A stretch of DNA of 64,000 nucleotides from Mangifera indica (taxonomy: Eukaryota > Streptophyta > Magnoliopsida > Sapindales > Anacardiaceae), in assembly GCF_011075055.1 (NCBI RefSeq), contig NC_058156.1, forward strand, positions 4,464,001-4,528,000, written 5' to 3'. Positions 30,896 to 61,790 of this stretch are shown in pieces (position 1 is the stretch's first letter; each line of letters begins with the position of its first letter). The position numbers were made by a program, and so were the translations under genes. The notes under the pieces were generated by a model, which did no database searches, was not told the DNA's origin, and saw only the letters and a list, made by a program, of their open reading frames with translations.

Positions 30896-33435
30896 CCCCT
30901 CAAGTGTAACTTAGGTTTTTGTTGGGATAAAAACTATTCCTTTCACATGTGCACCCAAACCCAATCACTTGGTTAGAACAGTACCCTGTGTCTTCCTTTG
31001 TTAGCTTGTTTGGCATATTGTTCAGTTCTCCTCCCAATATTTTGCATAACTTTCTCATGTCCAAAGGTGTAAGTGGATTAAAACCATAAACAACTTCAAA
31101 AGGTGAATAACCAGTAAACGTATGCACAACTTTATTATAAGCAAATTCTATATGTAGCAAACTATCTTTCTAAGTTCTCAAGTTTTTTTCTAATACAACA
31201 CGTAATAGCTGAGATAAAATTCTATTGATTACCTTTGTTTGTCCATTCGTCTATGGGTGACACATTGTAGAAAATAGTAGATTAGCATCTAACTTACCCT
31301 ATAATACCTTCTAAAATTAGCTTAAGAACTTTGCATCACAATCGAATACAATACTCCTTGGAACTTCATGCAAACACATGATCTTCCTGAAAAACAAATC
31401 AACAATGTAAGTTGTATCATTGGTTTTTTGACATGGAATAAAGTGTGCCATTTTTTAAAACCTATTAACCATGGCAAAAACTGAATCACTACCCTTTTAG
31501 ACCTAGGTAACCCTAAAACAAAATCATAGAAATATCCTCCCAAGGTATAGTAGGAATAAGTAAAGGTGTATTTAAACCATAGGGTAAGACTCTAAACTTG
31601 GTCTGTTTACACTTAATGCAACGAGTACAAATACACTCTCCATCTCGTTTCATATGTTGCCAAAGAAATGTTGTTGTAATACATCTAAAGTCTTAGCTAT
31701 ACCGAAATGATCCATTAATCCACCCTCATATACTTCCCTCACAAGCAATTCATGTAAAGAACTCATAGGCACACATAATCTATTTTCCCAAAATAAATAA
31801 CCATCATGCCTATAAAACTTACCAAATGTAGTTTTCTTACAAGCTTCATAAATATTGGAAAAATTAGAATCATTCACATACAAATCCTTTATCTACTAAA
31901 AACCAAGTAACTTAGCATCTAAAGTCGAGATTAGAGTATACCTGCATGATAACATATTTACCATAACATTTTCCTTACCTTGCTTGTAATGAATGACATA
32001 AGGAAAAGTTTCAATGTATTCAACCTACCTTGTATGTCTCTTGTTCAACTTACCTTATCTCTTTAAATGTTTTAGGGACTCATGATCTGTCCTAATGATG
32101 AACTCACGTGGCCAAAGGTAATGTTGCCACGTCTCCAACGCTTTTACCAAAGCGTATAACACTTTGTCATAAGTAGGGTATTTCAAAGCAGGCTTATTAA
32201 GTTTCTAATTGAAATATGCTATGGGCCTATTTTCCTACATCAAAACAGCTCTAATACCAATACTTGAAGCATCACACTAAAGTTTAAATGGTTTAGAAAA
32301 ATCAGGTAACGCAAGTAATGGTGCGAAACTTAACTTATCCATAATTAATGTAAATAATGCACGCTCTTGTTCCTCACCCCCCCTAAACCCTACATTATTT
32401 TTAATAACTTCAGTTAATGGTGTCATTAGTGTACTAAAGTCTCATACAAAGCTCTTATAAAAACTAGTTAAACCATGGAAACTCTTAACCTTAGTCACAG
32501 AAATAAGCGTTAGCCACTCTCAGATAACCTTAACCTTCTCTTCATCTACCTTAATCACCTGAGATGAGACCACAAATCCTAAGAACATACACCCAAGACA
32601 TGGTTCATTAACCTTATAAATGTATTAAGTATGTTAGTAAGCCCAAATGGCATTACCAACCATTCATATAGTCTATACTTGGTTTTAAATGCAGTTTTCC
32701 ATTCATCGCCTTCTTTCATCCAATATGATGATACCCATTTTTCAAATCAATTTTCAAAAAGATACATGATCCAGACAACTCATCAAGCATATCATCTAAT
32801 CTAGGTATGGGATAGCGATACTTTATAGTGATTTTGTTGACAGCTCTACAGTCAATGCACATTCTCCACGTCCCATCCTTTTTAGGCATTAGAATCACTA
32901 GTATGACACATGGACTCAGGCTCTCTCTCACGTATCCCTTCTTCATCAACTCTTTTACTTGCCTTTGAAGCTCATTTGTCTCCTCAAGATTACCTTTATA
33001 GGCTGGTCGGTTGGGTATTGCCACTCCAAGTATGAAGTCGATCTAGTGCTCGATCTCATGAATCGGAGGTAGTCCATCAGGAATCTCTTTAAGGAATACA
33101 TCTTCAAACTCCTACAAAAGAGAAACAAACACACTAGGAAAAGAATTGTCAGCATTAGTGAAAGATAAAAAACTTTCCTTGTAAACTAACAATAATGGAT
33201 ATTCTTTAGTCACAAGAGCAGCCCTCACATCATTGATCTTCCCATAAAAACTTTATTTTTTCCTTTCCTTGTTTTTTCTCTCATGGCCGAATTGCTCACC
33301 CTTTTTTTCATCTCTCCTCTTTTTTACCTTACTTTTTCTTCGCTCATGATCACTCACATTTTCTCTTCTTTTGTTTTCATTCTCACTTTCTTTTTTTTTC
33401 TTCATTCATCTTTCTTCTTTTTGATCCTCATAAAC
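30896..33435 (-). pseudogene. Gypsy W pol remnant (RT, RNase H, integrase)
   Basis: Minus strand, from high to low. RT begins at about 33160 ('EFEDVFLKEIPDGLPP', 'MAIPNRPAYKGN' at 33024) with 'KKDGTWRMCIDCRAVN', 'YPIPRLDDMLDEL' and '[13 protein letters not shown]'. The catalytic YVDD box is lost in the decayed stretch at about 32600-32500. RNase H text runs through 32400-31930. The integrase zinc region is at 31883-31650 ('[10 protein letters not shown]', '[13 protein letters not shown]'-like), the core at 31543-30990 ('FDCDAKFLS'-like, 'IEFAYNKVVHTFTGYSPFEVVYGFNP' across 31145-31070). A C-terminal part ends at about 30896. Stops are frequent throughout. The LTRs of this element are not recognised. 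Confidence 0.8.
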
Positions 33436-33792
33436 CTATTTTGGTGACAATGGTACAAGTGTGATGAATTTATTGTTAATCATGAATATGTTTTTATTTT
33501 TTAATCTGTCTTTTGTTACCTTTTTGTCATATTGCCATGATCTTCCTAACAAGATGTGTCTAACATGCATGGGTACTACATCACACAATACCTCATCTTG
33601 ATACTTACCCACGGACAAGACCACCACCATTTGTTTATTCAACCTAATTTCTCCATAATCATTTAACCACTGAAGCTTATAAGGTCTAGGTTGTTTGATT
33701 ATAGGTAAACTAAGTTTTTCTACAAGTTTGGTACTGGTTACGTTCGCACAACTACCCCTATCTATAATTAAAGTGCACACCTTACCCTTCAA
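33436..33792 (-). pseudogene. Gypsy W protease
   Basis: A continuous frame of 118 codons with DRGSCANVTSTKLVEKL (the active site is normally DSGS or DTGS; Ser is Arg here), 'YKLQWLNDYGEI', 'VVPMHVRHILLGRSWQYDKK' and a basic tail. This is the retropepsin-like domain of plant gypsy polyproteins. It is in frame with neither gag nor RT without passing stops. Confidence 0.75.
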
Positions 33793-33822
33793 ATTATACC
33801 TAATATGGAAAATATTCTCTTT

Positions 33823-34992
33823 CTACTTATCATTTTCTTCCTTGTAATGTAAACTTAAAGCTCTCTTAGACACTAATGCCTTACCCTCTACTGGATACTC
33901 CAACTTTATATCACTAGCATCCTCTAATGGTGGCATAGACTCATCACTAGATTCTTCCTCTGTCTCATACTCACCATCCTCCCTCAGCACCATGGTTCTT
34001 TTATTAGGACACTGAGAGGCTATGTGACCCCTACCCAAACACTTAAAACATTTTATCTCACTGTTTCTCTTTAGTGGTTTCTCTTGGCTAGACTCCTCTT
34101 CCTTAGGTCTAGAGTACTCAATTTTTAGCTTAAAAGTTGGGTTATCATCTTTTTTTGACATGCTCAACTTTCAAGAACTAGAATAAGACCCTACATCCTT
34201 TTTACCCTTCCGTTGTAATTGTCTCCCTCTCTTCATTGCCATATGGTCCAAATCCTCTAACTCTAAATAGTGTTGGAGCTCTGACACATTTGTTATTTCT
34301 CTATTCAACCCATTTAAAAATCTAGCCATAATGGTCTCCCTATCTTTCTCTATATTAGCCCTAATCATAGTTATCTCTATTTTCTTATGATAGTCTTCCA
34401 CACTTTTGGTCCCTTGCCTAAGCCCTTGTAACTTTTGAAGTAAATCCCTATGGTAGTGGCTAGGAACAAAACGTTGTCTCATTATACTTTTCATATTATC
34501 TCAAGTATCTATAGGTCTACCTAAATTCCTACGTCTATTTTTTAGTAACTGGTCCCGTCAAATATTGGCATAATCAGTGAATTCTATGGTAGCCAACTTC
34601 ACATTTTTCTCCTATAAATACCTATGTATGTCAAAAACCTGATCTACCCTTCGCTCCCAATCTAGGTACGCTTTCGAATCATTTTTACCCTGAAAAGGTT
34701 GAATTTTTATTTTAATGCTACTGAGACTACTATCACCCTACCTATTCTCCCTATACATATTGTTTCTATGACTTCTATGGACTTCGTTACTTTTTATATT
34801 GTTCTGCTTATCATTAATTTCATCATCCTCACTGTCAGTAACTATCTTATCCTCATCCCTCACCAATAGTGTTTTCCTTTTTCCCTTAGTCATACTACTT
34901 CCCCTTCTATCACTCTACCATTGCTCCAATCTATCATTAACACTCCCTATTACATGAAAAAATCTTTTAAACTGTTGTTGGATCACTTGCAT
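33823..34992 (-). pseudogene. Gypsy W gag with intact zinc knuckle
   Basis: The likely start is the ATG at 34992 (MQVIQQQFKRFFHVIGSVND), followed by a stop after 25 codons. Gag core text lies at 34740-34171: 'KIQPFQGKNDSKAYLDWE', 'MRQRFVPSHYHRDLLQKLQ', 'RFLNGLNREI'. The nucleocapsid part (34167-33823) has the complete knuckle CFKCLGRGHIASQC (C-x2-C-x4-H-x4-C) and an acidic tail. Two frames of about 110 codons are open, separated by one stop. The protein would package element RNA. Confidence 0.8.
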
Positions 34993-35169
34993 TGTAAAAC
35001 CCTTGGTTTTACCCTAATCTCCTACAAAATTGGTATTTTTTTTGTTCTACCATGTTATAATTTCAGAAAACAAAAGGTGTCTATAAATAAGAATCCTCAC
35101 ACGCTCGCTCACATGTTTACACTCGTGCTCATATTTTCACTTTAATATTCTCTCTCACTCTATAATCTG
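34993..35169. other. Spacer between gypsy W and LINE
   Basis: T-rich sequence with 'cacacgctcgctcacatg'. No LTR end or primer site of gypsy W is recognisable, so that element appears truncated here. Confidence 0.4.
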
Positions 35170-36860
35170 AAATTTTTTTTGTATAACAAATCAAGATGGT
35201 ACTTGCGAGAAACAATCAGCAGTCAAAGTTGCCCCCAGAGTAGAAAATCTTTAGCTAGCTTCCAATTAGTTACTCCCTTATTGCATCTTCAAAAAGCCAT
35301 CCAAGTAATAAGGGTTTGTCTCAAGATAGAATACTTTTGCCATATTATCTTATGTTATGGTGCTAGATTCTTCCTTACTCGAAATTTCTCCCACACACTA
35401 ATACAAGTGAAGCCCTTGAAGCATTTAACATCCAAATTGTTGTGTCATCTCCACAAGTAAGGTTGCTCGTCATTCCTTGTTTTATTTCCATAAGCTCAGT
35501 GGTGTTAGTACATGGCCATTTCCATCTATTCACATCTATGATGAAACTCACCTTCGTATAGCAACCAAGCCCTGAATCATAGATTGTATTTTCCCCAAAC
35601 TTCTTAATGAAGAGGTTTTCACTATGCTAATTGTCGAACCAAAGATGGGTGCCCATTCCATTGCTTACTCTAATCTTTATGTCTTTTCAAAGCTCCTTTC
35701 TAATCTTCAATATTTTTCTCCAAGTCCAAGAGAGTCACTATTGGCTTTAACTTCCCAAAAACTTTTCTTTCTTTACCTGACCACTTTCACCTAATTCACA
35801 CATATAGAAGGACTTGCGGGTTGGGTAAGATTCCACACATGTCAGGCTATTGCTACATTGTTCCAAGCCTTGCATCTCATGAGAACCAATCCCTTTTCTT
35901 TTTTAGGGACTCAAATGTCTTCCCAAGCTACTTTGACCTTACTTTTATTAAGGCCTACACCCACCTAAAAGAAATCTCTCAATTTACTATCAATTTCATT
36001 ATGAATCTTTGAGGGGAGGATGAAAATAATAGAATAATATGTTTGGATACTAAAGAGAACCATCTTGATGAGGACTAATCTATTGGCATATGAGAGGAAT
36101 TTGCTCTTCCAATAGTTTATTCTATTGAACATTTTCTCCAAAAAAGGCTTGCAATCATTATAGGAGAGCTTGGAATTTATCATAGGGACTCCAAGGTATT
36201 TGAATTGGAGAGTACCTTCCCCCATACCAAGGATCAGACCATATCTTTGTCTATCTTCATGGAAGATCCTAGATAAGTACACATTGCTCTTTACATTGTT
36301 GTATTTGAGCCTAGACTAATGATGAAATTTTCCAAAACAACTACTAAAGCTATAGGTTTCTTCTCTACTTTGCAAAAAAGATAAGATCAGCCGTAAAACA
36401 AAGGTGAGTAATCTTGTTAGGCTTACTCTTCCAATGGAACTCAAAGTCTTTATGATTAGCCACCCTTGCAAGAATTCTAGAAAGCACCTCCATGGCTATA
36501 ACAAAAAGGTGAGGAGATATAGGGTCCCCTTGCCTAAAACCTCTTTTGTTTTGGAAAAAAAAAAAACTCGTTAGCTCTCCATTCAAATTCACCGAGAAAG
36601 AAAGGGTGGAGATGCACTCCCTCACCCAATTGATAAAGATTGAATGCACACCAATTGCCTTGAGTACCACGAGAAGGAATTTCCAATTTACCATGTCATA
36701 AGCCTTCATCAAATCAACTTTTATGACACATCTTCTTCTATCCTTGTCTTTGATGTATCCATGAATCAGCTCTTGGCAAAGGAGAATGTTATCACCTATT
36801 CTTCTACTGCCCACAAAGGCCCCTTAAACTTGATTTATGAAGTGCTTTTGTGATGGTTCA
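35170..36860 (-). pseudogene. LINE (L1-type) RT and 3' region, truncated
   Basis: Minus strand, from high to low. RT begins near 36835 with 'GAFVGSRRIGDNILLCQELI' (36820-36760), then 'KVDLMKAYDMVNWKFL' (36720), 'FRQGDPISPHLFVIAMEVLSR' (36540-36470) and 'HLCFTADLIFF' (36390), where the catalytic F-A-D-D is changed to F-T-A-D. The thumb text 'LQFKYLGVPMINSKL' and 'WKSKFLSYANRLVLIKMVL' spans 36200-36050. Degenerate zinc-finger-type RVT text continues to 35180. A T-run at 35168-35177 fits a 3' poly(A). The 5' part (ORF1, endonuclease) is missing, as is common for LINEs. Confidence 0.85.
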
Positions 36861-38462: not shown

Positions 38463-41400
38463 TCATAGATCAATCACACGAGAAAGCTTCTGGATGTGAT
38501 TCAATAAGAAATCTCCCTGCTTGATCGTTGCTTGGTAAAGAGCATTCTTTGCATCTGGGCGGTTAGTTTCAAGAACACCAGCAACCTTATCAATCTTACA
38601 ATGAAGCTTCCCAGCTGCAATAAACCGTGAAAACTCCCTGGAGGAATAAAATGGTTATGCTTAAAGGACCTCACAACAGAAGGAACCATCTATTTCTTTT
38701 TTCCTTTAAAAAAATATCTATAAAGAAACATGAATTCATGCAATTATATACTCACAGATCAATGAACTCCACAGTTACCCAAAAAGCCTTTGCCATTGCT
38801 TCAATAGTAACACTCTTATAGGATTCCAGAAATTGAGAATAAACAACAGGTCTGACCTCCCTCATGTAATAGCGAAGTGGGGATACAAATAACGGTCCAA
38901 TTTTATTTGCTCTGTTAAGCCAGCTAGAAATAAAAGCAATAAAGCCTAGCTGTGAGAACATAAATTCAGACACCTGATGAATGGTCAATCATTACATCAC
39001 AAATTCAAAGGTGATAAAGTGGCAATATAATTCAGAGATAAGCAAGAACAACCACGATTTTGAAGACATTCAATTAAATTGAGAAACAAAAATTATTAGA
39101 CCTCCACTAACCGAAAGCTGAGAAAAATTATTTGTATTGACAATCATAAAGAGAGTTTAAGAACTCAGAAAGATAGGGGATTTTCCCAATCACTGTCAAG
39201 ATCTCAGGAGCATCCACAACCTGCAGCATTAGTTTGAATTAGCAACATTGACAATAAGCATGCCATTTGACTAAAAGAACAACTAAAACCAAGAATTCAC
39301 AGCATAAACACAGGTGCATAACCCCAGATACCTTTTGCTTCAGGGAAACTCTGTCCAAGGATATAATGCTTGTAAGAACAGTGTAAAATATGAAGGTGTC
39401 ATATGGGAAAAAGCTCATAAGTTGTGAACGTTGAAATTGAATCCAAAAATAAATTGGCTGCCTTCTTAAAATTCCGAGTGGACATGCAGTACAAGCCTTC
39501 ATACACCTTCAGACGGTTCTTCCTTTCCCAATCACCTCCCTCTTCAAACAAGCTGGCGTCATAAAACAAACAGTTATAATCAGACTTATGAGCTGTACTT
39601 TAGGGAAATGAAAACTCTAGTAAAATATTCATGACTCACTTCTTGGCCTTATCAATGCTCTTGGAAATAAGATCAAAATCCATGTAGAAAAATCCAAGCA
39701 GCAGTGCATAGAACACCAAATCCATCTTTTGCCCGACAGCTACTGTTTTGCCTTCCGTTATCTTCAGTTGTTCCAAAGCTTTTTCCTGGGTTCATATGGA
39801 ACAAAAATTTTGAGTAAAAACTACAAATGCAAAAACAACATATAATTGTGGAATAAAAGACTACAAAAAGTAATGCCACAATGCTTATATACCCTATCAC
39901 CGATTTGAATGTAAAATAATGACTTAGCTACACAAGCTTCACGAACTTCACTTTCTCCCAAGTTCTCTTCAGCATCAGCAATCCTGTAAAAGGCAACCAA
40001 AATAATGATTACCCAGCTCTGTGTTTACTAGAACTCAAATCAGAGCAACCAATTGAACCATAAGATGGCTCTTATTTGACATGGTTTGAGACAAGCAACA
40101 GTCATAATTAACCCACAAGATCCAACACTGACTCAATTTACAATATTTCTATCATCTATGGTATGTTTGGTCAAGCTTTCAAATCCATGAAATATATCCC
40201 ATTCAATACTGGATTTGCAACATCTAAAATTTAGTAATATTTCTTGAGCTGATGTTTTGCAAGTGCCATCCAAGATTTCAAATTTTGATAAAATTAAGAG
40301 ACTCAATCATAGATAAACACATAAATCAAGCAAAACTAGAAGTCGGCCAAACACCTGTAACTAAAATTTAACAATCAAAGACATATTTTGTTATTATCAC
40401 TATCAAAAACCTATCATGACCAAATAAGCTCAGAAAAGACATGTTCTATAATTTCGAGAGACAAAAACAAACAAAATCAACAAATTTAGCCTCTGAAAAG
40501 AAAAAATCTCTGTTATAAAGAAAATTATTGTATGACATTACAAGACATGAGCCAACCAAATAATAGAAGCACAGCAAGAGTTGTAACACCATATATGGAA
40601 GGAACCATGAAAATTTAATATCATTATATCTTGGAAGTTATCAACTTATTTCTTGTTTTCTTCCATCAGAGCTACAAAAATTCCTCATTACCAACCAACA
40701 GTAAATGATATAATTTTAGATCCCAAAAACAACTAAGCATTTTTTTAGCTGTAAAATTTTAGCTCAGATGAATAAATGTAAAGTAGCAACAGAATTTTTA
40801 TTTTTTTAGGGGGGGGGGGGGCGCGAGCGGTGTGGTGGTGGAGGAGAGATGTGTTGGTGTGTGAACACAGAGAGAGGATTCATGTTGACCTCTGCTATCA
40901 ATAAAACTAGAGCACAGAAAACGACTTGGCCACACAATTTCAAAACAAAATATTATTTTGTAACCTAGAACCCTTCTCCTCAGGTCAAGGGCAGATTACA
41001 AAATTTGGAGAAAGAGGAATACAGAGGAGAGAATAAATTAAAAAAATTAAAATGGAAGCCAGATACAAACCTTCTGTAAAGACAATCACCCGTCAAATGC
41101 TCCATTGATCCTCTAATCCAATTTAGTAAATTCCAGCAGAGTAACAACAAGATCCAATTAATTCTTTATTTCCTCATGTGAAATCCAAGCCCACAGAAGA
41201 CTTCCAACCATTTCATAAGGTTTAAAACTCTAGAACTCTCTCATAAGCCAACTATAAAACACCTAACTGCAAGTCTTTTATTGATTCTTTAATAATGCAC
41301 ACAGCCATTAAGAACAATGAGAAAAATCTCCCAACAACTCTCCTCACTAAAAATTCCAGTACTAGTCATATTTTTCTCAACTTCTGTCAACACATCAAAC

Positions 41401-42010
41401 TGCAAAAAATTTGGCATGCATGCTGCAATTTAAAAAATATATATATATGAAACAGAGAATCAAGCAGTGTCACTGGAGGACATAATATCAAAACATTCAT
41501 CAAAATAATGCGTCCCTTCAAACTTCAAGTTCCAATCTCCCTACTTTAAATTGCAGTAGCATTGATAACCACCAACAGCATGAATGATTGCATCGTCGCA
41601 TCAACCCAAAACATAATATTTCGGGCAATCAAACAAAACAAGCACTGTAAAAATAACTCACTTCTCATCAAGCTTCTTAATCTCCTCTTCGATTTTCGCA
41701 CGCATCGTGCCAATAACGCTCTGATCCAACGCCAGCACGGACTCTGCCGCTATGGTTTCATAAAACGAAGCCATATCTACATTTGAAAAAAACAAATTAA
41801 AATGTGATACAAAAACTAAATAGAAACTCGGAAAAAATGTAAGAGACTCTAAGTGCATCAGGCGAATTAAGTACCGTCGGCTTTGAGCATAGCAAAGACT
41901 TCCTCTTTGAGACGAACCTTCTCGATGTCTTGAACATCTGGATGAGTTAGAAGGAGACGCTTGTGTGCGAGGAGAAGGTGAGCTTCCTGAGTTCCATCTT
42001 GGCCATCCAT
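38463..42010 (-). pseudogene. RPN7: 26S proteasome lid subunit RPN7 (PSMD6-type), disabled copy
   Basis: Eight exons, all with GT-AG introns: 42010-41875, 41776-41662, 39983-39893, 39785-39640, 39552-39332, 39220-39112, 38923-38756 and 38637-38463 (stop TGA). Total 1161 nt, about the length of plant RPN7 (near 387 aa). Start MDGQDGTQEAHLLLAHKRLL; later 'EENLGESEVREA', 'EKALEQLKITEGKTVAVGQK', '[20 protein letters not shown]', '[20 protein letters not shown]', '[20 protein letters not shown]', 'LSRVIDL'. RPN7 is a scaffold of the 19S lid, with N-terminal helical repeats and a C-terminal PCI domain. Lesions: one extra C in exon 5 (39405-39407), an in-frame TAA in exon 6 (39128-39130), one missing C in exon 7 (about 38873), plus Gly to Trp (38779-38781) and Gln to Leu across the exon 7/8 junction. 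Retained introns mean a DNA-level copy, not a processed one. Sequencing error could explain the indels, less easily the substitutions. Confidence 0.9.
40809..40821. repeat. G13 homopolymer in RPN7 intron 2
   Basis: Thirteen G in a row followed by GCGCGAGCGG, a GC-rich island inside a 1.7-kb AT-rich intron (C-run on the coding strand). Confidence 0.95.
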
Positions 42011-42100: not shown

Positions 42101-42111
42101 TGATATATAAA
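42101..42111 (-). promoter_or_regulatory. TATA-like box of the RPN7 copy
   Basis: On the minus strand TTTATATATCA lies about 92-100 bases upstream of the ATG, a plausible core-promoter distance. The gypsy LTR begins at the very next base (42112), so everything further upstream is now retrotransposon. Confidence 0.5.
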
Positions 42112-42809
42112 TGTCACACGCTTATGTCGACGTGATGGGCCTATGCAACAGTTAGCGGCAATATGTATTAAGTCAGCCTAAATGTTTCAAATGTTGTTGT
42201 CCTATTGAAAATACGCAAAAGCACAAAATTAGTTAATTCATACAACGTAAAAAACACAAAAAGCTAAAAGAAGAGAGAGCTCAATATATGTTGGAAAATG
42301 CTTTGTATTCCTAATATGCTTTGTGTTGTACAAGTGTGGTCTTTTATATGCAAAGGCCTACAGAAAATGATAAGATACATTGGTATATACAAATGTGACA
42401 AGACATGTTTCATCCTCCTAGGTTGTCAGGCTCTTGTACATTGCATGCATGGTCCTCAGTCCATTGCATGCATGGCCCTCTGCCCACTTCCTGTATGAGT
42501 GTTTAGCTGCAGTAGTCTGCTGCCCATAGTCTACATGTCTACTCAACTACAGAGCCTCCTGTACACCCTGTTTGCATGTCTGCTACCTCTTGCACATTGT
42601 CTGCATGTTGGTCTGGCTAGAAAGTCTTTTGCACACAGGGCTACATGACTACCTTGCTAGCTTGTGACAAGCACAAGTTGTTATCTTTTGCAAAGTGGCT
42701 CGACATAGTGAGTTGTGCTACCACATGAGCTTGGTTGGGCTTTTGGCTGCTTGAATGAAGGTGGCCCAAATGTTGGAATTGGGTTGATGCAAATAAGCAG
42801 GTTGTGACA
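42112..42809 (-). repeat. 3' LTR of gypsy V
   Basis: TGTCACACG at the left edge and TTGTGACA at the right. It is repeated at 47308-48022. It is the LTR nearest the RPN7 copy and points in the same direction. It contains repeated 'gcatg(c)atgg' and 'ctgcatg' words. Confidence 0.85.
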
Positions 42810-42820
42810 CCCTCCCCTAC
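42810..42820 (-). other. Polypurine tract of gypsy V
   Basis: On the minus strand GTAGGGGAGGG abuts the LTR start TGTCACAACC. It primes plus-strand DNA synthesis in this element class. Confidence 0.75.
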
Positions 42821-45800
42821 TCAATCCCACAATGCCCTCATTGCGTTGGTTTAGCCTTTGGTGGAATTTTTCAATCTTATCCCGAAATTGTCATAGGTCA
42901 AGTTCCAATTCCCAACCTACTTCGGAATCTGAAAGCCTCTTCCATTTTATTAAGTATTCTTGATGTATTTTTTGGGCTTGAACCTATGAGCTAGAATTTT
43001 CTTAACTTTTTACTCATGGGAAGCAGTGACAACTGTAAGGGCTCGGCTTGACTCACTTTGGTTGGGGTTTTACTTATTTAGTTAGAATGGCTTCGATAAG
43101 CTAACATGAAAGGTTGGGTGAAGCTTTAAGTAAAGAGAGAGCTTCCCCCGGTAAGCATTCGGTGAAATTCTAATTTCAATGGAAACAAGCCTTCGAACCT
43201 TCAAAGCAGTTCCTTGTATAAATGTTAAGTACGTTTAGACAAGTGAGAAAGAAGTTTTACTAGCACTAAGTCTCCTGCATCGAACTGCCACGAGTTCCTT
43301 TTCTTATTTGCCTACTTCTTCATTTTCTTGGCTACTTCGGTCAAGCACGATCTTCCTAATTCTACCTTTTCTCTCCATACTTTGGTGAATTGGAACGCTT
43401 TTGGGGCCTTGCCTTCATATGAGGTAGCCCACGTTTATATTGTCACTAGTTATTGCCTAGTTGCAAGCTCAAATGGGCTGGTCCTTATGGATTCACTCTT
43501 TTGTAGATTATATGAAAATTGGGCAATGTCTAGTAGCTTAACCCAGTCTTTCTGGTTGGCACTCATATAGTGGCATAAGTACATTTCCAACAAAGCGTTC
43601 ATGTGTTTGGTTTACACATCACTTTGAGGGTAAAAAGTATTTGAAAAGCTAAGAATGGACCATAAAATTTTAAATAATTTAACCTAGAAATGACCTGTAA
43701 ATCGGGCATCTCAATCGCTCACAATGGTCTTCGATAGTCCCCAATACTTCACTACATGTCAGAAGAAAAGCTAGGCAGTGTCATGCCCATCAATGTTGTT
43801 TAGTGCAGGAATGAAAATGGCATACTTGTTAAATTAGTCCACCACAACTAAAACCTTGCTACATCTTTTGACCTTTGAAAAACTTACAATAAATTCATTG
43901 AGACACTCTCTCATGGCTCTGGGGGATAGCTAAGGGTTGTAGTAGTCCTGCGAGATGATTCTGCTTATTTTTATCTTGTTAGCACACAAGGCAGGTTTTC
44001 ACGTAGAGTTTCACTTCATCCCACATCTGTGGCTAATAGCAAGAATTTTCAATGAGTGATCGGGTACATTGTGATCCTGGGTGTCCTACCATATGGAATC
44101 ATGGCATTCTTTGATGATTTCTTTCCTCAGTCTGCCTCATCATGTCATTATGATGGCAACAAGCTCAGCCCTTCTACTCAATGCCTCTGTTACCAAGTTA
44201 GCCTTACCCAGTTTGTACTCCATCACAAAATCGAACTTAGCTAATAAGGTTTACTACTATATTTGTTTGGGTGTGAGCTTCTTTTGCTTGAGAAAATAAC
44301 TTGTGGCAATATTGTCAGTCTTGACTGCAAACTTTGAACCTAGTAGGTAGTGTCACCACCTGCATAGACAATACACCACAGTGGTCATTTCCTTTTCCCA
44401 GATAGTATAGCGACACTCTGTTTCATTCAATTTTCTGCTTTCAAAAGCGATGAGATGTCTTTTCTGCATCAAAACACCACTTATAGCAAAATCAGAAGCA
44501 TTAGTATGTACTTCGATTTCAAATTGTCTGGGAGTGCAAGCACCGGTTCCTCTGTCACTGCTTGCCTCAAGGCTTGAAAGGCCCTCTAACATTTGTCACT
44601 TTAGTCCCATATACGCCTTTTCTTTAGTAAGTCGATCAGGGGTTGTCTTGGTTGAATAGCTCTTGATAAACCTACGATAATAATTCATGAGCCCCAAAAA
44701 TAATCTCAGTTCAGGTATAGTTTTTAGTGCTGCCCAATCTTAAATGGCTTGTATTTTGGCTTTGCCCATGCGTAATGTCCCAACGCCAACAATATGCCTT
44801 AAAAAGCTCACCTTCTTCTGTGCAAAGGTGTATTTCTCCTTCTTGACATAGAGTTGATTGTCCCATAATGCTTGAAAAACCTGTCGAAGGTGTTAGATGT
44901 GCTCGGGCAGTGTTTTGTTGTAAACTACAATATCATCCAAATACACTACGACAAAGTGGTCAAGAAATGGCTGAAAGACCTTGTTCATAAGAGTGTAGAA
45001 GGTTGTGGGGGTGTTATTGAGGCCAAAGGCATTACGAGAAATTAAAATAACCCATACTTAGTGACACACGTCATTTTAGGCACGTCTTCTTAAGCTATTC
45101 TGACCTGGTAGTATTTGAAGCACAAGTCTAGCTTCGTGAACTAACGGATATCTCCAAGTTGTCGAAAAGGTTAGCAATGAGAAGGATTGGATGCTTGTTC
45201 TTAACGATGATACGGTTGAGAGCTCGATAGTCAACACATAATCTTTGGGATATGTCATGCTTCTTTTAAAAAATCATTGGTGCTCTATAGGGTTCCTTTG
45301 ATAGTTGAATGAACCCGATATCTAGCATCTCCTTGAGTTGTTTCCTTAATTCCTCCAACTCAAGAGGTGTCATTTGGTAAGGCACAATAGCGAGCGGTTT
45401 GGTCCCAGGTTCTGGCTCAATGTGGTGATCAACTTCCCATTGCGACGATAAGTGCTTGGGCAATTCCAGCGACATGACATCTTTGAACTCTTCTAAGGTG
45501 TGTTGGATGTTTGCAGGTAGGTCAGTTTGTTCATGGCATGATTCTTCCTTAAGGGTTGCAAGGAATATAGGCTCCGTTCTTTTGAGGCCTTTCATGAATT
45601 ACAAGGTTGAAAGGGTTTTGACCACGAGGTTCTGCTCAGCTCAACGTGAAAGGGGCATCATGTTGGGTTTTCTTTCATCTAGAATCATCATAGTGTTGGC
45701 AAAAAGAACAAGCACTGCCTTGACCTAATCCACAAACTTCATACCAAGCATAATAGGGTGATCATCCGTGGGAACAACAAAAAAATCAAGTATACCATCC

Positions 45801-45950
45801 ACCCAAACGCACGTGAACTCCTTATGCAATGCCATACATTGCCTTTGGTGCGGAGTTGACTGCTTTAGGCCATCTTTGTCCCTGGTTATACCAGAGGCCT
45901 AGTTGGTTAGCTTTCTTTTGTTTTATGAAGTTATAGGATGATCTCATGTC
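42821..45950 (-). pseudogene. Gypsy V pol remnant (protease to integrase)
   Basis: Minus strand. Protease-like text near 45960-45700. RT from 45595: 'DVMSLELPKHLS', 'PLAIVPYQMTPLELEELRKQ', 'LDIGFIQLSKEPYRAPMIF', then 'NRIIVKNKHPI'-type text at 45220 and a YLDD-like box near 44940 ('VVVYLDDIVVY' in a broken frame). RNase H at 44592-44353 shows 'FEIEVHTNASDFAISGVLMQ' and 'ETECRYTIWEKEM'. The integrase zinc region and core run through 44330-43350, with 'VMEYKLGKANLVTEALSRR'-like and 'FKVLGIKLSFSTTFYPQS'-like decayed text. The frame is broken many times. The polyprotein would reverse-transcribe and integrate the element. Confidence 0.75.
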
Positions 45951-47281
45951 AACAAAGGCGTGCACCTCCTAGTCCTCGATTTGGGCTATCGCGTATAGTC
46001 TCCCTCACTGTTCAGATTTTGGCACATTTACCTTGGCTTTGATGGCTCTCAAAATTTGTAGTGACTCTAGGTAGGTTTTTTACTATGGTTGTGGGTCTGG
46101 ACAATCCTCTATGAGGGCTGCCAATTTGCCCCTCTTCATACATTCCCTGACTACATACACCCTGTCACACAAGAGGCACTTTGGTAGCCCTCTCTAATGA
46201 CTTTTGTCCCGTTGGTCCTTTTTATCCTTCTGAACCACCTTGCCTTTGTGCTTGCGTTAGTCTTAGGTTTCATCCTTGGAATAATGGCGATCTCCGTTTT
46301 TGCCCTTAACATGCTTCAAGTCTTTACTTTTTTCTAGTTTCCTGTACTCAATGGGTATGGAGGCATTGAGATCTTGAGCTCCTCTCTATTGGATCTCGAC
46401 CTTAGCCCATTGTTGTAGCCCATCCATGAAGCAAAACAATCCTTTGCTATCAAAAAAGTTATTGATTTCTAGTAGTAATTTAGAAAACCTCTTGACATAG
46501 GCTTTCACATTACCTCTGTGTGTGAGTCAATGGAGTTTGGCCTTGGCCTTATACTTAACAATTTTTGGATAAAATTGTCATTTGAGTTCACCTTTGAACT
46601 CGTTCTATGATGCAATGCTACTGTTGCCCGTTTTATTTTTGTGTGTCTTTGGTGCCACCAAACCATAGCAGTGTCATCAAGGTAAAGTGCAACATGGTCA
46701 ATCTTATCGGTGTCCTCCTTAACACCGACAACGTGGAAGAACTGCTTCATACCTTATAGGAAATTATCTATTTTCGTAGTATTTCTAGTCCTTTTGTACT
46801 CCTTTGGCATGGGTTTGTTAGTTTTGGAAAGTTTTGTTGTGATTGGTGCTACAAAAGCTTTTCTATGTGCTACACCTATCTTGCAAATGTCCCAGTCGCC
46901 TTGCATCTCAACCTACCCAGTTTCTAACATTGCAACTTTCTCTTTTAAAGCTACCACTTCATCATGCAAAACATCAATAGTAGTAAAAAGAGAGTCTCTT
47001 AGTCGGTTACCTTGGTTCAAAAATGATTCGGTGATGACATTGAGTGTGCCCTACGTTTCCTCATGCAACTTCTCCTTGTTACCTTCTAGTTTCTCAGTGC
47101 GTTCACCAAGTTCCCCTACTTAGTTGAATTTGTCTCGAAAACCTAGCTTCAACCTTACGAGTTTAGTGTTCATGTCTAAGACGGTGTCCCATGACTTCTC
47201 TTTGCAATGCTTCCTAGTATCTAGTGTTTTCCTTTCCTTCTCGTGGCCTTCGTGAATGGTGACTTTTCCAGATCTCGTCAT
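45951..47281 (-). pseudogene. Gypsy V gag
   Basis: It starts at the ATG at 47281, 13 bases after the primer site: MTRSGKVTIHEGHEKERKTL. A coiled-coil-like region follows, then the gag core at 46750-46560 ('MKQFFHVVGVKEDTDKIDHV', 'YLDDTAMVWWHQRH'). A decayed Cys-rich part with 'CLLCDRVYVVREC' lies near 46170, followed by the protease-like 'HAFVDMRSSYNFI'. Stops interrupt it at several places. Confidence 0.75.
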
Positions 47282-47293
47282 CTTCAGTTGAAA

Positions 47294-47305
47294 GCTCTAA
47301 TACCA
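47294..47305 (-). other. Primer binding site of gypsy V
   Basis: On the minus strand TGGTATTAGAGC follows the 5' LTR by two bases and matches the initiator tRNA-Met complement with one change. Confidence 0.85.
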
Positions 47306-47307
47306 CT

Positions 47308-48022
47308 TGTCATAGGCTTATATTTACATGATGGTCCTATGCAACACTTGGCGACAATATGCACTAAGTCAACCTAAATGTCCAAACATTGTTGTCTATT
47401 GAAAATATACGAAAGCACAAAATTAGTTAATTCATACAAAGTAAAGAATATATAAAGGTAGAAGAAGAGAGAGCTCAATATATGCTAGAAAATGCTTTGT
47501 ATTCCTTATGTGTTTTGTGTTGTACAAGTATGCCCTTTTATAGGTAAAGGCTTACAAAAAATGACAAAGTACATTGGTATATACAAATGTGATAGGACAT
47601 GTTTCATCCTTCTAGGTTGTCAGGCTCCTGCACACTGCATGCATGGTCCTCTGTACACTGCATGCGTGACCCTCTGCATACTACTTGCATGGGTGCTTAG
47701 TTGTAATAACTTGCTACCCATAGTCTGCATGTCTGTTCAACTACACATTGCCTTCATCCTGCACACTTTGTCTACATCTCTGCTACCTTCTACACATTGC
47801 CTGCATGTTGGCCTCACTAGAAAATCTTTTACACATAGGGCTACATGACTGGCTTGTGGTAGGCACCAATTGTTATCTCCTACAAAGTGGCCTGACATAG
47901 TAGGCTGTGTTGGCATATGAGCTTGGCTGGGGCTCTTGGCTGCTTGAATGAAGGTGACCCAAATGTTAGATTTGGGTTGGATAAACCTTTATTGGGCTGA
48001 CACAAATAAAAGAGTTATGACA
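47308..48022 (-). repeat. 5' LTR of gypsy V
   Basis: TGTCATAGG at the left edge and TTATGACA at the right. It aligns with 42112-42809 over its full length. Confidence 0.85.
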
Positions 48023-48984
48023 TAAAGGCCAGGAGACTTATTTTCCACAAATTTTTATCTGTTAAGTTTTAACAAATTAAATACTCATTTATTATCTAAT
48101 TTGTATTAAATTTTGTTGTTAATATTAAAGATAAAAATATAATTTAATAATTTTATTTTAAAAAAAGAAAACTTTATTCTTTTTTTCATTATAGTTTTGA
48201 AAATTGATAATTTCTCAATAACTTAGTTTTAAAAACCTATTTTTTCATCCCCACCATTTAAGCTTTTCATATTTTAATGTTAACAAACACTTTTTTAAAG
48301 TTTAATACATTACACTTAAACCTCAAAAAATACATTCTCTCTTTCTGATGACCCATTTTTTATGTGTTATTGACCCCACCACCGACACCCTCTCATTCTC
48401 TGGTGGTTTTTTGATATGAAAACACCTAAAATCCAACTTAAATTGATCAATGGTTGTGCAAATCTATGTGTTGACTGATGCTCAAATTGACTAGAGGACA
48501 TCGTATAGGTAAATTGGTTTAGATCCATATACCCTATTCTAGATTCTAGGTAGAAGATATAGAGTCATATGAAAGGTAGCCCACTAGTTAAGAAAGACCT
48601 AAGATGCACATCTATCTAATATTGCAAAGCAAGGCAAAATAAGGGAATCAAGTACAACCTAAGAAAGAAAATATTTAAATTGTGAGCATTGATTAGATCA
48701 TAGATCACCATCTCTCAATACTAGAATATTGCTTCATCAATCCACTCATAAGGAAAAGCAGGCATGCTAAGTAAATATGATGGCATTAGAATGCATTGGG
48801 TTTTACACCTCAAACATGAAATGCGTATTGCTAGTTAATGGGAATAGTGCGTTTACTTTAAAGTAAGAGATGTTTAGCGTTGTTTTAACCATAACTGCAG
48901 TTGGTGTTATATCCATTGTTTAAATAGTCGTAAGTGATGATGGTGGTTTAACAAATTAATCAGAATTGGTTGTTATAGAATGCT
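48023..48984. other. Non-coding; ancestral upstream region of the RPN7 copy
   Basis: AT-rich up to about 48300, then mixed sequence with no open frame or recognised repeat. If gypsy V is removed, 48027 onward joins the RPN7 core promoter, so upstream regulatory DNA should lie here. I see no clear individual site. Confidence 0.4.
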
Positions 48985-51540
48985 TTGTAAGACATTGAAG
49001 AAGAGAAGTGGTCAAATCCCTAAGTCTTGTTCGCCCTATTTCTTTCTACAATACTATCTACAAATGCATTACAAAAATCTTGGTAAATAAAATTAAAGCT
49101 TTCTTGTCTAACCTTATTAACCGTGCACAAGGAGCATTTGTGAAAAGTAGGAAAATTGGAGATAACATTCTCCTCTGCCAAAGTTTGCTTCTCAACTACC
49201 ATTGGGCTTCTAATAAAAGCATAGACTACACTCTCAATATTGACATTAGAAAGGCCTATGATTGTGTTGATTGGTGGTTTCTCCTCTCTATTTTATCCCT
49301 GTTTAGGTTTCCCTCTATTTTGGTCAATTAGATCAAAAAATGCATTTCAACTCCTATGTATTCTATAGCTTTTAATGGCAAGATAACTAGTTTTTTCAAT
49401 GGTAACTGTGGGCTTCAGTAAGGTGATTTTCTTTCTCCATATTTGTTTATCATTGTCATGGAAGTCTTTTCAGACTTACTTAAGCATGTGGCTACACACC
49501 CTTCTTTCTTATTTCACTCAAGGTGCAAGAAGAAGAAAATAAGTCACTTATGTTTTACTAATGACTTAATGTTGTTTTATAAGGCAAATAAGACTTCGAT
49601 TTCCCTTTTGAAGAATACTTTTGATATTTTCTCTCATTGGTCTGGTCTTGATACTAACCTTGCTAAAAGTCAGATTTTCTTTGTAGGCACTTGTAATGAG
49701 GAGAAAAGAAATATTGCTAGAATTATGGGGTTTGACATTGAATGCCTCCTCATTAAGTATTTAGGTGTTCCTTTTATTATTATCAAGTTAAGGAAAGTGG
49801 ATTGCAAACCTCTTATTGATAAGATCCTTAGTCATATTCTCTAGTGGAAAAGTAGGTTTCTCTCATATGTTGGGAGGTTTGTGCATATCAAGTTATTGAT
49901 ATATAGCTTGAAACGAGCTTCTTATTGACAAGTTACAAGCCCTGTAACTCCTTTTGGATCAAAACTTATAGTTGTTCAAAGTTTATATATGCATTTTAGA
50001 TTAAATTTATCTATGGGCTTGGGTTGACCTCTTTGTTGGCTCCTTTAAGCATCCAATCATCCTCGAGTGAGCTGGTTTTAGTCTCTAAGCCCACCATAAG
50101 CCCTACTAAGGCTTGTTACACCTTTTTAGCTTTGCTCCTCGTAGTTGGCCCAACTGGAATGTGTAGCAGATCTCTTTGATGGCTCAATGCTCCCACGATG
50201 CCTCTATCAGACTATGTCCACCACTTAGCCTTCTCTTAGACTCCAAATGATTTGAAACACACCATCCATAAAATCAGTTTGGGTGCCACCATTTACCATA
50301 TTTTGTGGGAATGGAATAAAAGGATATTCTCTAATGAAAGAAGAAATTAGTCCCTTATGGTTAAATCTATTAAATCCATAGTCTGGGATAAGGCTTTGGA
50401 CCTATTAAAAATCACTAAATTTGTGGAGAATGAACAAATTGCTTAATCTTGGTCTATATTGAATTGCATCTTCAAGTGATGGCGGTGGCATTCTAGTATG
50501 CTATAATGAAGAAAGGTTGGATGTTTTACTAACTATTTGTTTCCTATGGTGGTTCACTTTGTCTACCTTTTTTTGTCCAAGTCCCCTATGTTTGTCTCTT
50601 TTCCATAGCTTAGGTTGGTTCTTGTGCTTTGTCAGGCCTTATAACGTTTAGAGGTGTCTTTTGTCCGTTTGCTTCGTAACTCCTATTGACATCCTTGGCT
50701 TTCCCCTTAGTTGTGGTTCTCTACTGCTTTTCATGCATGGTCAGTTATATGTTCCAACTTGCATGCTCAAGTTCTTTCTTATTGGATTAAGCTCATTGCT
50801 TTTATTAGATAATTTCATTGTTGATTTATGTAGAGGTTGTTGGTTGTTCCTTCCTCTAGTGTATGATTTCCTTTTTGTGTGTTGGTTTACTTTGGCCTCC
50901 CTACTTGCTCCAGGTCTCTTGCTCTTGGCTCTTGTCCTCAGCTTTGCTTGTCTCTTTAAAGATAATCAAGACTTTTGTTTAGTTATGCTCCCTTGCTACT
51001 CTATGTGTAATAACAAATGTTATGCTCTAAGATGCACGCTTCATTGTTCTCATATCAAGTCCAATTTTATGCCTTATTTGAGAAGTCTTGTCACTACTCT
51101 CTATTGTGGCTATGGGTTGGTCCTTGTTCCTCTTTTTGATTTTCCTTTTCTATGTTAAATCTTCATTGGAATGCTCTTTGTTTTTTTTGTTATGTTCTTT
51201 TCTTGGAGTTACTCTCTCCTCCAATTACCATAGATTACTATGAGTTGGTGTTTTAGATTCCTTGTTCCATGATTGATGGCTTGGTTTATCTTGTAATCAT
51301 TTTGTAGCTAGACATGTTTATTTTGTTTGTTATGGGGCTTTTGAGTTGGCTTATCCTTTTGAACTTTATCTTTGTAGGTATCACATAGTTATTCGATAGG
51401 AGGAAAGTTCTTTGGTTCCCTTTCTTGCTAAGTCTTTGCTATTCTTATCTATTTTTCCCTAGCTTTTCATTGTACGACTTGTACCTAGTTTTTAGCTGCC
51501 CTTTCTTTTTGTTGGGTGACTATTTGTTTTTTTTCCTTCC
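48985..51540 (+). pseudogene. LINE (L1-type) RT and 3' region, truncated
   Basis: Plus strand. 'LVRPISFYNTIYKCITKILVN' (49020-49085), 'LINRAQGAFVKSRKIGDNIL' (49110-49170), 'NIDIRKAYDCVDWWFLLSIL' (49235), a stop at 49329, 'SPYLFIIVMEVFSDLL' (49440) and 'SHLCFTNDLMLFY' (49540), where the F-A-D-D box has become F-T-N-D. Then 'LIKYLGVPFIIIKLRKVDCK' (49755) and 'SRFLSYVGRFVHIKLL' (49855). Downstream text to about 50460 fits the C-terminal part; 50500-51540 is T-rich and would be the 3' UTR, ending at a (TA)n run. A 165-codon hydrophobic frame at 50661-51158 lies in this tail and is probably chance. The element is 5'-truncated and inactive. Confidence 0.8.
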
Positions 51541-51558
51541 TAGGGTGTGGTTTTAATA

Positions 51559-51578
51559 TATATATATATATATATACG
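51559..51578. repeat. (TA)n run
   Basis: About ten TA units at the end of the LINE tail. Confidence 0.9.
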
Positions 51579-51630
51579 TTTCCATGTATTTTTCTCTCTT
51601 ATAAAGAAATGTAATTATTTTGGGTTTTTA

Positions 51631-51635
51631 TATTA
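51631..51635. repeat. Target-site duplication of solo LTR (left)
   Basis: TATTA, identical to 56295-56299. Confidence 0.65.
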
Positions 51636-52376
51636 TGTAACACCCTTTTATAGATACATACCCCTACATGAAATATACATCAGAATAGATGTACTAAATT
51701 TTAAAGCAATTGTTAATAAACTCAAAATCATTCAAATTATGCAACATTTAATAATGTCCTACAACCCTAAAAGTGCATTATTATTTAGAAAATCAAGTAA
51801 TAAAATTTATACACTAACTCAAGAAATCAAATGTGCATGAATAGTTAAATACATCTCTAAACAAATTAAAAACTCAATCAAGAAAAATGACAGTATTACC
51901 CCTGCCTACATATGCCTCTACAAACTGACCCCATTGACTCCCCCGCTACCTCCCTACTACTTCATAACTCTACTTGTAAAACCACATAAATAGAAAATGT
52001 GAGTGAAATACACTCAGTAAGTAAAAAATCTTATAATCTCTCAATAAGCAAATTCAAATAATCACAAAAATCATGTGTCTTGTTTTCATAATCCACATAT
52101 CCATACGAATGTTTATTCAGCATCCCCAATGCTAATCTGAAACATCTTAGCGCCCAACGCCTAACCCATAATAGTGGTGTCATCTTGAATGACTAATGTC
52201 ATATAGTGTATATCAACATCTTAGATGCTTGGTGAAAGCATGAGACATCTCAAATGTCAATTATAAAGTGCACCTAATGCATATGTCGTCCGGGCTCAAG
52301 GCTATGGATACCATATCATAAAGGCAGTAAGACCTCTGGTCTCTTTTGCTATCACACATGCATCTTAGATGCTTTG

Positions 52377-54754
52377 TGTAACACTCAGATTCAGGTATGC
52401 CAGTAAACTCTACTTCCAAAATTACCTCTAAAGTTGATTTTATAAATTGTTGTTTAAAGAAATTGTGAAGGAATTCTTTAAAAACTACAAAATGAGTAAT
52501 AATTTTTAAAAGGGGTAAAATGGTTATTTTAGAAGAATTTAAGGGACAAAATGAGAATGTAAATTGAATGACACACTGAGAATTATAGATGGTGTTAAGG
52601 GTTTTTGGTCATTGTATGGTGATATAATAATCATTTTTTGAGAAGGCTAAAGATAAATTAGTCCAAAATGGTTATAAAGACAATGATGTAAATTGAATGA
52701 TTACTATTCACTTTCTTCTTTCTCAACTGAGACTTCTCCATAGAAATTTCACTAAGGTTTGCTTAAAGCAAAACTTTACCAAAAAACCTAGTTAAACTAC
52801 TAATTTTCAAAGTCTTCAGTTATAAAAATTATAAATCTGTCCATTTTGGTAAATTATAAGGTAAAAAGTTTAATTTTTAAAAGATGTCAAGTTTAGAGTT
52901 TTAATTGATGATTATTTTTTCGGATGATTAAGGTTGCTAAGAATAATAAAAGAAGGAGAATAGGCCTAAATCACCAATCAACAAAAAAAATGTAAGAATT
53001 TCATACTTTACATACTTGAAGTAATTTGAGTTAGGTTATTCAAATAACTTTTACTTGTATAAGTGTGTAGAGTATTAGAATTAAGTGATTTATGCTTAAA
53101 AGAATAAAACAATTCATTAGGACTCATGATGTAATTTTACGCCATAAGGGTATTTTAGACATTTCATATTCCTAGTGTTAGCTTAGTGGATTTTGTGTGT
53201 TGAGTATGTGAGAAATGATGAATTGATGGAAGAATTTGCACTAAGGGTACGCATGTAATTTTCACTCAAAAGGGTAAAAGCATTATTTTATGTGATGTAA
53301 GTTAATTTTGTTTAATTATGTGTATGATATGTGTAAGAATAATATAGAGAAATTAATTTGATGCATGAGATATATATAAATGTATAAGAAAATAATTTGA
53401 TGCTTAATAAGGATAAAAAAAAAATGAGGAAAAAAAATAAATATGCATATTTCATATTATGGTTATACATGTATACATGAGGACTCATCACATATGCATG
53501 TTTTCAGAAAAATAAAGAAAGAGGAAAAATGTTTTCTAAGTTATGCATGTTTTTAGAAAATGGAAAACAAATGTTTTTAATTTTATAAATACTCATACGA
53601 TACAAGAAAGCAGAAAGCATGCTTAAAGGAAAAAAAATCCCTTACACAAGAGTTGTATTATGTGGACAACAAAAGAAATATGTCAATTGTATTATGTAGA
53701 CAGTAAAGAAAGATGTTAGCTATAATGTATGGATAACAAAGAAAAATAGTGTAATGTGAGATTAAAATTGCATGTAAGAGAGGATTGTACTTTGGATAGT
53801 GACTAAGAGTACTATCATATGTAGTCTAAATTGGTCAATGAAAATATTTGATAAACAAAAAAAAAAAATTAGCAAATGTTTTACGAAAGTCATTTGCATT
53901 AGAATCATGCATGCAAGCTTATGTGGTTGATAAAAAGGTGATAAAGATGTACGATCAGAAAATAGAAAAGTCATGATACTCATACATGCATAAATCATAA
54001 CGTGTGAATTATACTTGCATAGTAAAGAAAAGAATAAATATATGAATAAAAAGAATTATGATATATGGTTAATGCATGTTATGTGTAAATTATCTTGTAT
54101 GTGACTACTCTTGACACGCTGAGTATGGAAAAAATTGGTATTGATATGAAATGTTTTGAGTATTTAATATGATTTTTTTATTAAGCTGTAGTCGCTCACT
54201 CCATATAATTTTATATTTTACAAGTAAAAAGTTACAAAAGAGGTTCTAGGGGAGCTCTAGCGAGACATGAGGCTGAGAGAGGAAGACACTATATTTTTGT
54301 CAATTTATATATTTTTGATATATATGTGAATATATGTATCTATATATACTTGATATAAATATTGGTGAATATGTATATATATTTTGGTTCCTATATGTAT
54401 ATATGTGGTTATTGTATTGATGTGCATATATATCTATATAGTGATTAGTACATCCTCAGGGGAATATACATACATACATACATATATATATATATGTATG
54501 TATGTATATATAAAATTGTTGGAATTGGATATAAGGTTCCTGTGGGTGGTAATTTTTTCTGGTGGTTACTATTATTTATGTATTCCATTAATTGTGATCA
54601 AGTTGATGAAAATCTAGTCAGTTGACAGGATTAATTTGTATGAATTATTAATTGGGAGTGTTACAGAGCATAATAAAAATTCCCCAAGTCCTTATAAAAT
54701 AGGAAAACTCTTGTTGTTTTTCTATAACACACCTATTGGTTATAAGAGGTTACA
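52377..54754 (+). mobile_element. R2-type LTR, complete copy nested in solo LTR
   Basis: It begins TGTAACACTCAG and ends AGAGGTTACA, so the six terminal bases are perfect inverted copies. The last 1.2 kb matches 3205-4437 in the same orientation. No internal coding region adjoins it, so it is also a solo LTR. The flanks CTTTG and CTTGA agree only in part. A block at 53520-53560 is A-rich with 'gttttcagaaaa' repeats. Confidence 0.65.
54466..54512. repeat. Palindromic (CATA)n(TA)n(TATG)n microsatellite
   Basis: Four CATA units, a TA run and three TATG units form a perfect-looking hairpin. It takes the place of the (AT)n(AC)n tract of R2 copy 1. Confidence 0.9.
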
Positions 54755-61320: not shown

Positions 61321-61326
61321 TCTGCT

Positions 61327-61790
61327 ATGACAGGTCAGTTACTTTTGTATACTATTCCTTTGTATGCTTGGATCGATTCAGGTGCAACATATAGTTTCGT
61401 AGCTAAGGGAGTAATGGAGAGATTAGGGCTAAAACCTATAGTAGTAAACTGCATCAGTATTGAAATGTCAAATGGTAACAAGATAGTGAGTGATAACATG
61501 TTATTGAGTCAAATAGTGGGGTTAAAGGGCCGAGAATTGATAGTAAACCTGATCATATTTGAGATGCTTGATTTCGACATGATCTTGGGGATGGACTTTC
61601 TCAATAAGTATGGGGCCAAGATCGATTGTAAGAAGAAAAAGATCAAATTTAACTTGGAAAGTGGGGACAAGTTCTCCTTTGGTGAGGGTCGATTATTGAG
61701 CTTAATGGTTAGCAGTGTCAAAGCTCGCAAAATGTTGAATAAAGGATGTGTCGGATATTTGGCACAAGTGATAAACAAATATAAATCTTA
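61327..61790 (+). pseudogene. Tekay-like protease domain
   Basis: A clean frame of 154 codons: 'YAWIDSGATYSFVAKGVMER' with the D-S-G-A active site intact at 61375, 'LIVNLIIFEMLDFDMILGMD' and 'LNKYGAKIDCKKKKIKF'. This is the retropepsin-like protease of plant gypsy elements. It opens within the polyprotein, so the Met at 61327 need not be a start. A TAG closes it before RT. Of the coding remnants in the window it is one of the best preserved. Confidence 0.85.

Follow-up and report, generated by a model that had tools for sequence, protein, structure and literature searches.

The RPN7 gene copy on contig C20 of Mangifera indica is very probably a duplicated, non-processed pseudogene, which arose by whole-genome duplication, remained under constraint for a long time, received an LTR retrotransposon insertion and lost its function late. 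The window analyzed is a stretch of 64,000 nucleotides (C20:4464001-4528000) from a 391-Mb assembly of 241 contigs. The copy has an intact partner on contig C3, carries disabling lesions, is diverged from that partner, shares collinear neighbours with it and has an LTR element at its promoter. As in other non-processed pseudogenes, the introns of the parental gene are found at the same places, the reading frame is disabled and the constraint is relaxed. We propose that a whole-genome duplication in the mango lineage gave rise to the RPN7 loci on C20 and C3, and that purifying selection would have acted on both copies for most of the time since then. An LTR retrotransposon would have landed at the TATA box of the C20 copy, severing the upstream promoter, and only for about the final 10-15% of the time elapsed since the duplication would this copy have been free of constraint. 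Two frameshifts, a stop codon and eight changes at near-invariant residues would then have been gained, which would leave the C3 copy as the only source of RPN7.

The C20 copy lies on the minus strand and runs from an ATG at 42010 to a stop codon at 38463 in 8 exons and 7 introns (Table 1). Exon mapping bore out two statements of a preliminary description, namely that all introns have GT-AG ends (7/7) and that the exons add up to the length typical of the family, which is 1161 nt here as well as in the intact C3 copy. Domain and structure matches were obtained from a piecewise reading, in which every stretch is translated in its own frame. This reading matches PF10602 RPN7 (2.2e-63), PF01399 PCI and PF21154 (C-terminal helix), with scores above the curated cut-offs (RPN7 213.5 bits vs 29.6; PCI 54.7 vs 22), and the solved chain 8amz_R (7e-210), which we take to be spinach RPN7. 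In a protein homologue search 7992 sequences were scored, 2191 of them at E <= 0.001, and the best 120 of these were used for the analyses; among these 120 the nearest relatives are plant RPN7 proteins, with Sapindales among the best. The copy resembles RPN7/PSMD6, a subunit of the 26S proteasome lid (PF10602 + PF01399 + PF21154), in its 386-codon length, its domain order, its exon layout, which is that of the live C3 copy, and its residue identity of 92% to the database protein P0001 and 93% to Pistacia RPN7. It differs from this family in that the protein cannot be read through in one frame, owing to the frameshifts in exons 5 and 7 and the TAA in exon 6; the frame beginning at the start codon terminates at codon 214, which lies in the fifth of the eight exons and upstream of the PCI domain. 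Because of the position of this stop, any transcript of the C20 copy would probably be removed by nonsense-mediated decay.

Table 1. Features of the RPN7 copy and its promoter side, in positions of the window.
Feature	Position	Strand	Basis
Exon 1, with the start codon at 42010	41875..42010	-	exon mapping
Exon 2	41662..41776	-	exon mapping
Part of intron 2 without clear counterpart in the intact copy	40143..41615	-	intron comparison
Exon 3	39893..39983	-	exon mapping
Exon 4	39640..39785	-	exon mapping
Exon 5, with one base more than its intact counterpart	39332..39552	-	mapping and comparison with the C3 copy
T/C run containing the one-base gain (frameshift)	39405..39412	-	sequence comparison
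Exon 6	39112..39220	-	exon mapping
In-frame TAA in exon 6	39128..39130	-	comparison with the C3 copy and homologues
Exon 7, with one base less than its intact counterpart; loss near 38873	38756..38923	-	comparison with the C3 copy
Exon 8 including the stop codon	38463..38637	-	exon mapping
TATA-like stretch, at 92-101 bases before the ATG	42102..42111	-	sequence; putative role
Old LTR retrotransposon, 5.9 kb, in the promoter of the C20 copy	42112..48022	- (probable)	LTR and flank comparison

The preliminary description had predicted another RPN7 locus in the same genome and had named its absence as an outcome that would turn the lesions into assembly errors. A whole-genome search with PF10602 did reveal such a locus at C3:3480451-3482771, which is intact and encodes 386 residues. 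Like the C20 copy, this gene has eight exons, the two copies have all intron positions in common (7/7), and its 386-codon frame is open throughout. Its product differs from P0001 by 1 residue, and over two long aligned stretches the C20 and C3 genes are 81-82% alike. Judged from its sequence, the C3 gene is a functional-looking RPN7 paralogue. The search yielded 9 matches, 2 in the C20 copy, 2 in exons of the C3 RPN7 gene and 5 in CSN1-like genes, and among these listed matches there is no RPN7 copy much closer to C20. A third RPN7 gene was considered for the matches on C5, C8 and C13 and rejected, as three CSN1-like loci hold these five; the CSN1-like probe piece matches chains of COP9 signalosome subunit 1 (best E 3.4e-52). 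At the CSN1-like locus on C13 only part of the probe was matched (133 residues, 74% identity), and this locus may be partial or divergent. The live C3 gene itself carries 10 derived residues and has Ser at column 212, where 105/119 homologues (best 120 of 2191) have Pro.

The divergence of the two copies was then assessed. For C20 vs C3 RPN7 a Ks of 0.311, a Ka of 0.034 and a Ka/Ks of 0.109 were obtained (NG86, 383 codon pairs, the two lesion codons and the stop being excluded), with a synonymous divergence that varies among exons from 0.19 to 0.53. The introns, aligned individually, have diverged by a K2P distance of 0.206 over 708 aligned bases (six introns, intron 2 excluded). Together with RPN7, three gene pairs are collinear with the order and every strand reversed, which falls short of a published-grade synteny block: RPN7, CCCH and REF6-like, all minus, on C20, and REF6-like, CCCH and RPN7, all plus, on C3. 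The CCCH gene is named for Pfam zf-CCCH, found in 3/3 C20 pieces and in one C3 piece, and the REF6-like gene for its match to solved REF6 chains (E 9.1e-70). For the REF6-like pair a Ks of 0.314 was obtained (866 codons); its C20 member contains 9 stops, and its C3 member (C3:3394800-3398740) contains long open frames, one of them of 807 codons. For the CCCH pair, Ks values of 0.27, 0.40 and 0.43 were found in three pieces, a fourth piece (Ks 0.25) being set aside as intron-like. The two genes closest to live RPN7 on C3 are Ulp1-like and ABC1-like, and for neither is a C20 counterpart among the matches listed; a hydrolase gene at C20:4.39 Mb, 112 kb away, has 14 other matches, none of those listed being on C3. 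This hydrolase gene, which has a weak Pfam match, is presumably ABHD17-like. The unmatched neighbours are compatible with ordinary gene loss. Along C20, the REF6-like zinc-finger gene is seen as a relic with in-frame stops and interruptions (C20:4538386-4543474), and at least 2/3 of the collinear genes are broken on this side.

According to the accessible part of PMC7059373, 38/41 large collinear blocks in mango have a median Ks of 0.3-0.4 and the recent whole-genome duplication dates to about 33 million years; the values of 0.311 for RPN7 and 0.314 for the REF6-like pair are inside this block range. An excerpt of PMC12307512 gives the synteny of Rhus to mango as 1:2, with Pistacia and Rhus lacking such a duplication. 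Because of the Ks of 0.311, the intron divergence of 0.206 and the three reverse-collinear pairs, the C20 and C3 RPN7 genes are most likely copies from the whole-genome duplication and not a recent segmental duplicate. The preliminary description had seen in the C20 copy a young segmental duplicate in decay. It is indeed a decaying, non-processed duplicate, with its introns kept and three lesions, but the same divergence values and collinear pairs argue against its being young or segmental. It is not the duplication that is young but the loss of function. A retrocopy origin is ruled out by the retained introns.

A duplication that preceded both the mango whole-genome duplication and the split from Pistacia, with Pistacia having retained the C3-type copy, was weighed against this origin. 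In the protein tree both copies group with Pistacia and P0001 (support 98/95), and the best tree, in which the C20 and C3 copies are not grouped against Pistacia, weakly joins Pistacia with the live copy (83/61). However, a tree holding the two mango copies together costs just 0.41 log units and is not rejected (p-AU 0.297), and a decayed sequence would be expected to drift outward in such trees. The RPN7 Ks, which equals the range published for the whole-genome duplication (PMC7059373), and the same Ks of the neighbouring REF6-like pair also speak against the earlier date, which we regard as very unlikely.

Regarding the lesions themselves, exon 5 has gained one base (221 nt vs 220 in the intact copy). 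The extra C that had been reported there is correct as a one-base gain, but the type of the base is ambiguous, since it falls within a T/C run in which the intact copy also differs. The in-frame TAA in exon 6 was recovered at 39128-39130, at a site that is Ser in the intact copy and in 108/119 homologues (from the best 120 of 2191) and at which the live C3 codon differs by 2 bases. Exon 7 is short by one base as stated before (168 nt vs 169 in the intact copy). A Gln to Leu change, in contrast, had been listed as a further lesion and has to be withdrawn as such: Leu is the commonest state of that column, occurring in 94/119 plant homologues (best 120 of 2191), and is also present in the C3 copy. 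For the conservation columns 119 homologues were used, i.e. the best 120 of 2191 with P0001 removed because it is the live gene itself. At columns invariant in 119/119 of these, the C20 copy carries six changes (F19L, L54I, L102V, K114R, G321W and L331F); with T141A and R376H the number of changes at columns conserved to at least 97% rises to 8, whereas the intact C3 copy has 0. When each of the 120 best-listed homologues was scored leaving itself out, a count of 8 was equalled by 1/120. The number of changes at conserved columns in the C20 copy is beyond chance.

These counts also bear on the reading that the C20 locus is a live second RPN7 gene obscured by assembly or sequencing errors. A one-base change in length within or next to a short single-base run, as seen in two of the three lesions, is a typical type of error. 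Against this reading stand the 8 vs 0 conserved-column changes of two copies from one assembly, the two-base distance of the TAA from the live codon, and open element frames of 1037, 880, 646 and 369 codons on the same contig within 130 kb, two of which may be parts of a single frame divided at a locus border. Assembly quality cannot be judged from the CCCH gene on C20 (C20:4533184-4536983), as a stop occurs close to the end of the last piece aligned for it. Thus, sequencing error is an unlikely cause of the lesions, and we give the live but misread gene very little credence.

To place the loss in time, the 28 residue differences between the copies were polarised with the Pistacia, Citrus, Xanthoceras and Dipteronia proteins, the stop and frameshift codons being excluded. 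Changes on the C20 branch account for 17/28, those on the live branch for 10, and 1 is unclear. At columns conserved to at least 97%, 8/17 derived changes are found on the C20 branch vs 0/10 on the live branch (Fisher p 0.012), and at a cut-off of at least 95% the numbers are 10/17 vs 2/10 (p 0.107), so that the contrast between the branches leans on the strictly conserved columns. If the C20 branch had been neutral throughout, about 81 conserved-column changes, 9 stops and 9 frameshifts would be expected at the synonymous rate, as compared to the 8 changes, 1 stop and 2 frameshifts seen; in the 34 bases that make up the splice sites and the start and stop codons, about 5 hits would be expected under neutrality and 0 were seen. 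The neutral share of the branch amounts to 0.105 (0.055-0.179) with Ks/2 as the rate and to 0.152 (0.079-0.259) with the intron rate, in a simple Poisson model with equal branch lengths, which ignores gene conversion and rate differences and has to be read against the exon Ks of 0.19-0.53. Since all eight conserved-column changes were counted as belonging to the neutral phase, this share may be an overestimate. With the duplication at 33 million years, the neutral phase would correspond to about 3-5 million years, roughly 2-9. The low Ka/Ks, the intact splice sites and the few lesions imply that the C20 copy was constrained for about 85-90% of the time since the duplication and decayed neutrally afterwards.

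The promoter side of the C20 copy is occupied by an LTR element. Its LTRs, at 42112-42809 and 47308-48022, have TG..CA ends, and the element has the target-site repeat TAAA on both sides; the TATA-like stretch directly adjoins it, and the outer four bases of this stretch are the target-site repeat. A minus orientation of the element is probable because a stretch resembling a primer-binding site adjoins the right LTR. Members of the LTR family were matched at least 25 times in the genome. Of 25 LTR matches, own copy included, 23 start at query base 1, which leaves the left end unproven by this count as the query begins there. The left end is, however, marked by the other copies fetched, all of which (7/7) become similar within 3 bases of 42112 while their outer flanks differ. 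Along 688 bases the two LTRs show 96 transitions and 22 transversions (K2P 0.203), an excess of transitions being typical of methylated element DNA. When estimated from transversions, the age of the insertion is 0.32 (0.18-0.51) of that of the duplication. Placing the loss of the gene at 0.32 fits worse by 10.3 log units with the synonymous rate or 4.0 with the intron rate, and placing it at 0.2 fits worse by 2.9 or 0.5, respectively. Thus, the insertion probably preceded the loss, or, if its lowest age values apply, the two events are of about the same age; this order is soft, as the insertion range of 0.18-0.51 reaches into the highest values estimated for the loss. The element is the best candidate for the trigger of the loss. 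In a comparison of the upstream region of the live gene with window positions 48023-56000 no convincing homology was found (the best match, of 30 bases at E 1.6e-4, was regarded as fortuitous). As upstream homology beyond the element is lacking, the proposed splitting of the promoter follows solely from the position of the LTR and the flanking repeat.

At 42136-42141 the LTR beside RPN7 reads TGGGCC, as compared to TGGTCC in the 3 other readable copies of the 7 fetched. This base change yields the motif TGGGC/GGCCCA about 130 bases before the start codon, and in the live gene the corresponding distance is 123 bases. TGGGC is described as a proteasome-related promoter element in the available text of PMC6568242. 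The C20 copy might have outlived the loss of its promoter for some millions of years before its final loss, driven by the LTR with its new TGGGC motif under selection on proteasome dosage. We consider this course of events improbable. The similar spacing in the LTR and the live promoter is possibly due to chance, and the LTR-driven promoter is weakened by the fact that the five-base motif is common, with several upstream occurrences in both genes: 3 within 1 kb upstream of the live gene and 6 upstream of the C20 copy, both strands counted.

The broken C20 copy might still be transcribed and act as RNA, e.g. as a source of small RNAs directed against the live RPN7. The core promoter stretch and seven splice-site pairs are retained, and the 81-82% likeness of the two genes over their long aligned stretches would fit such a role. 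C20-specific peptides were found in 0/240 listed database proteins, which is weak counter-evidence as the database is clustered at 90%. We deem an RNA function highly improbable. An origin of the C20 copy by recent local or segmental duplication, with decay just beginning, would suit the few lesions and the intact splice sites but can practically be dismissed in view of the Ks of 0.311, the equal Ks of the collinear REF6-like pair and the replacement of the promoter side by an element whose LTRs differ by a K2P distance of 0.203.

As a kind of pseudogene, the C20 copy is ordinary. With its collinear partner, its Ks range and one copy kept and the other lost, it is like the fractionated whole-genome-duplication copies (ohnologue pseudogenes) of polyploid plants, mango included, as far as the accessible part of PMC7059373 describes them; it is unlike them in that its loss is estimated to be a late event, within the final 10-15% of the period after the duplication, and in that the gene is still nearly complete. 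The long purifying selection before loss that we infer for mango RPN7 also recalls the Paramecium duplicates under dosage constraint treated in an excerpt of PMC10195154, although only one gene in one plant is concerned here and a dosage constraint on it would be hypothetical. A limited literature search retrieved no paper that combines RPN7, Mangifera and the proteasome, so that the C20 copy seems to be undescribed there, and none on delayed ohnologue loss. The copy offers a clean and datable case in which a whole-genome-duplication copy of an essential complex subunit is seen shortly after it was lost, and in which its intact partner, the collinear genes and a candidate for the trigger can all be recognised. 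A single case leaves theory unchanged. The measure of the constrained share can, however, be repeated on all broken copies from the whole-genome duplication and could thus address whether complex subunits die later than other genes.

Around the gene, remains of retroelements (reverse transcriptase, gag, protease) are located at 32719-36823, 48999-49841 and 60223-62580. Thirty longer open stretches in the window were scanned and gave nothing above the cut-off for a non-element family, and Rfam gave nothing at gathering score. Intron 2 is 1678 nt long in the C20 copy vs 388 in the live copy. Its extra part matches an insert at the same place of a Pistacia gene model over 14 residues (79% identity, E 5.6e-5 in a two-sequence comparison), whereas the live intron 2 matches this insert at chance level (E 4.2). 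Because of this match, part of the extra stretch looks ancestral, and judging by this one short match the C20 copy seems to retain more of the ancestral intron 2. The extra stretch also contains a run of 12 G near 40810.
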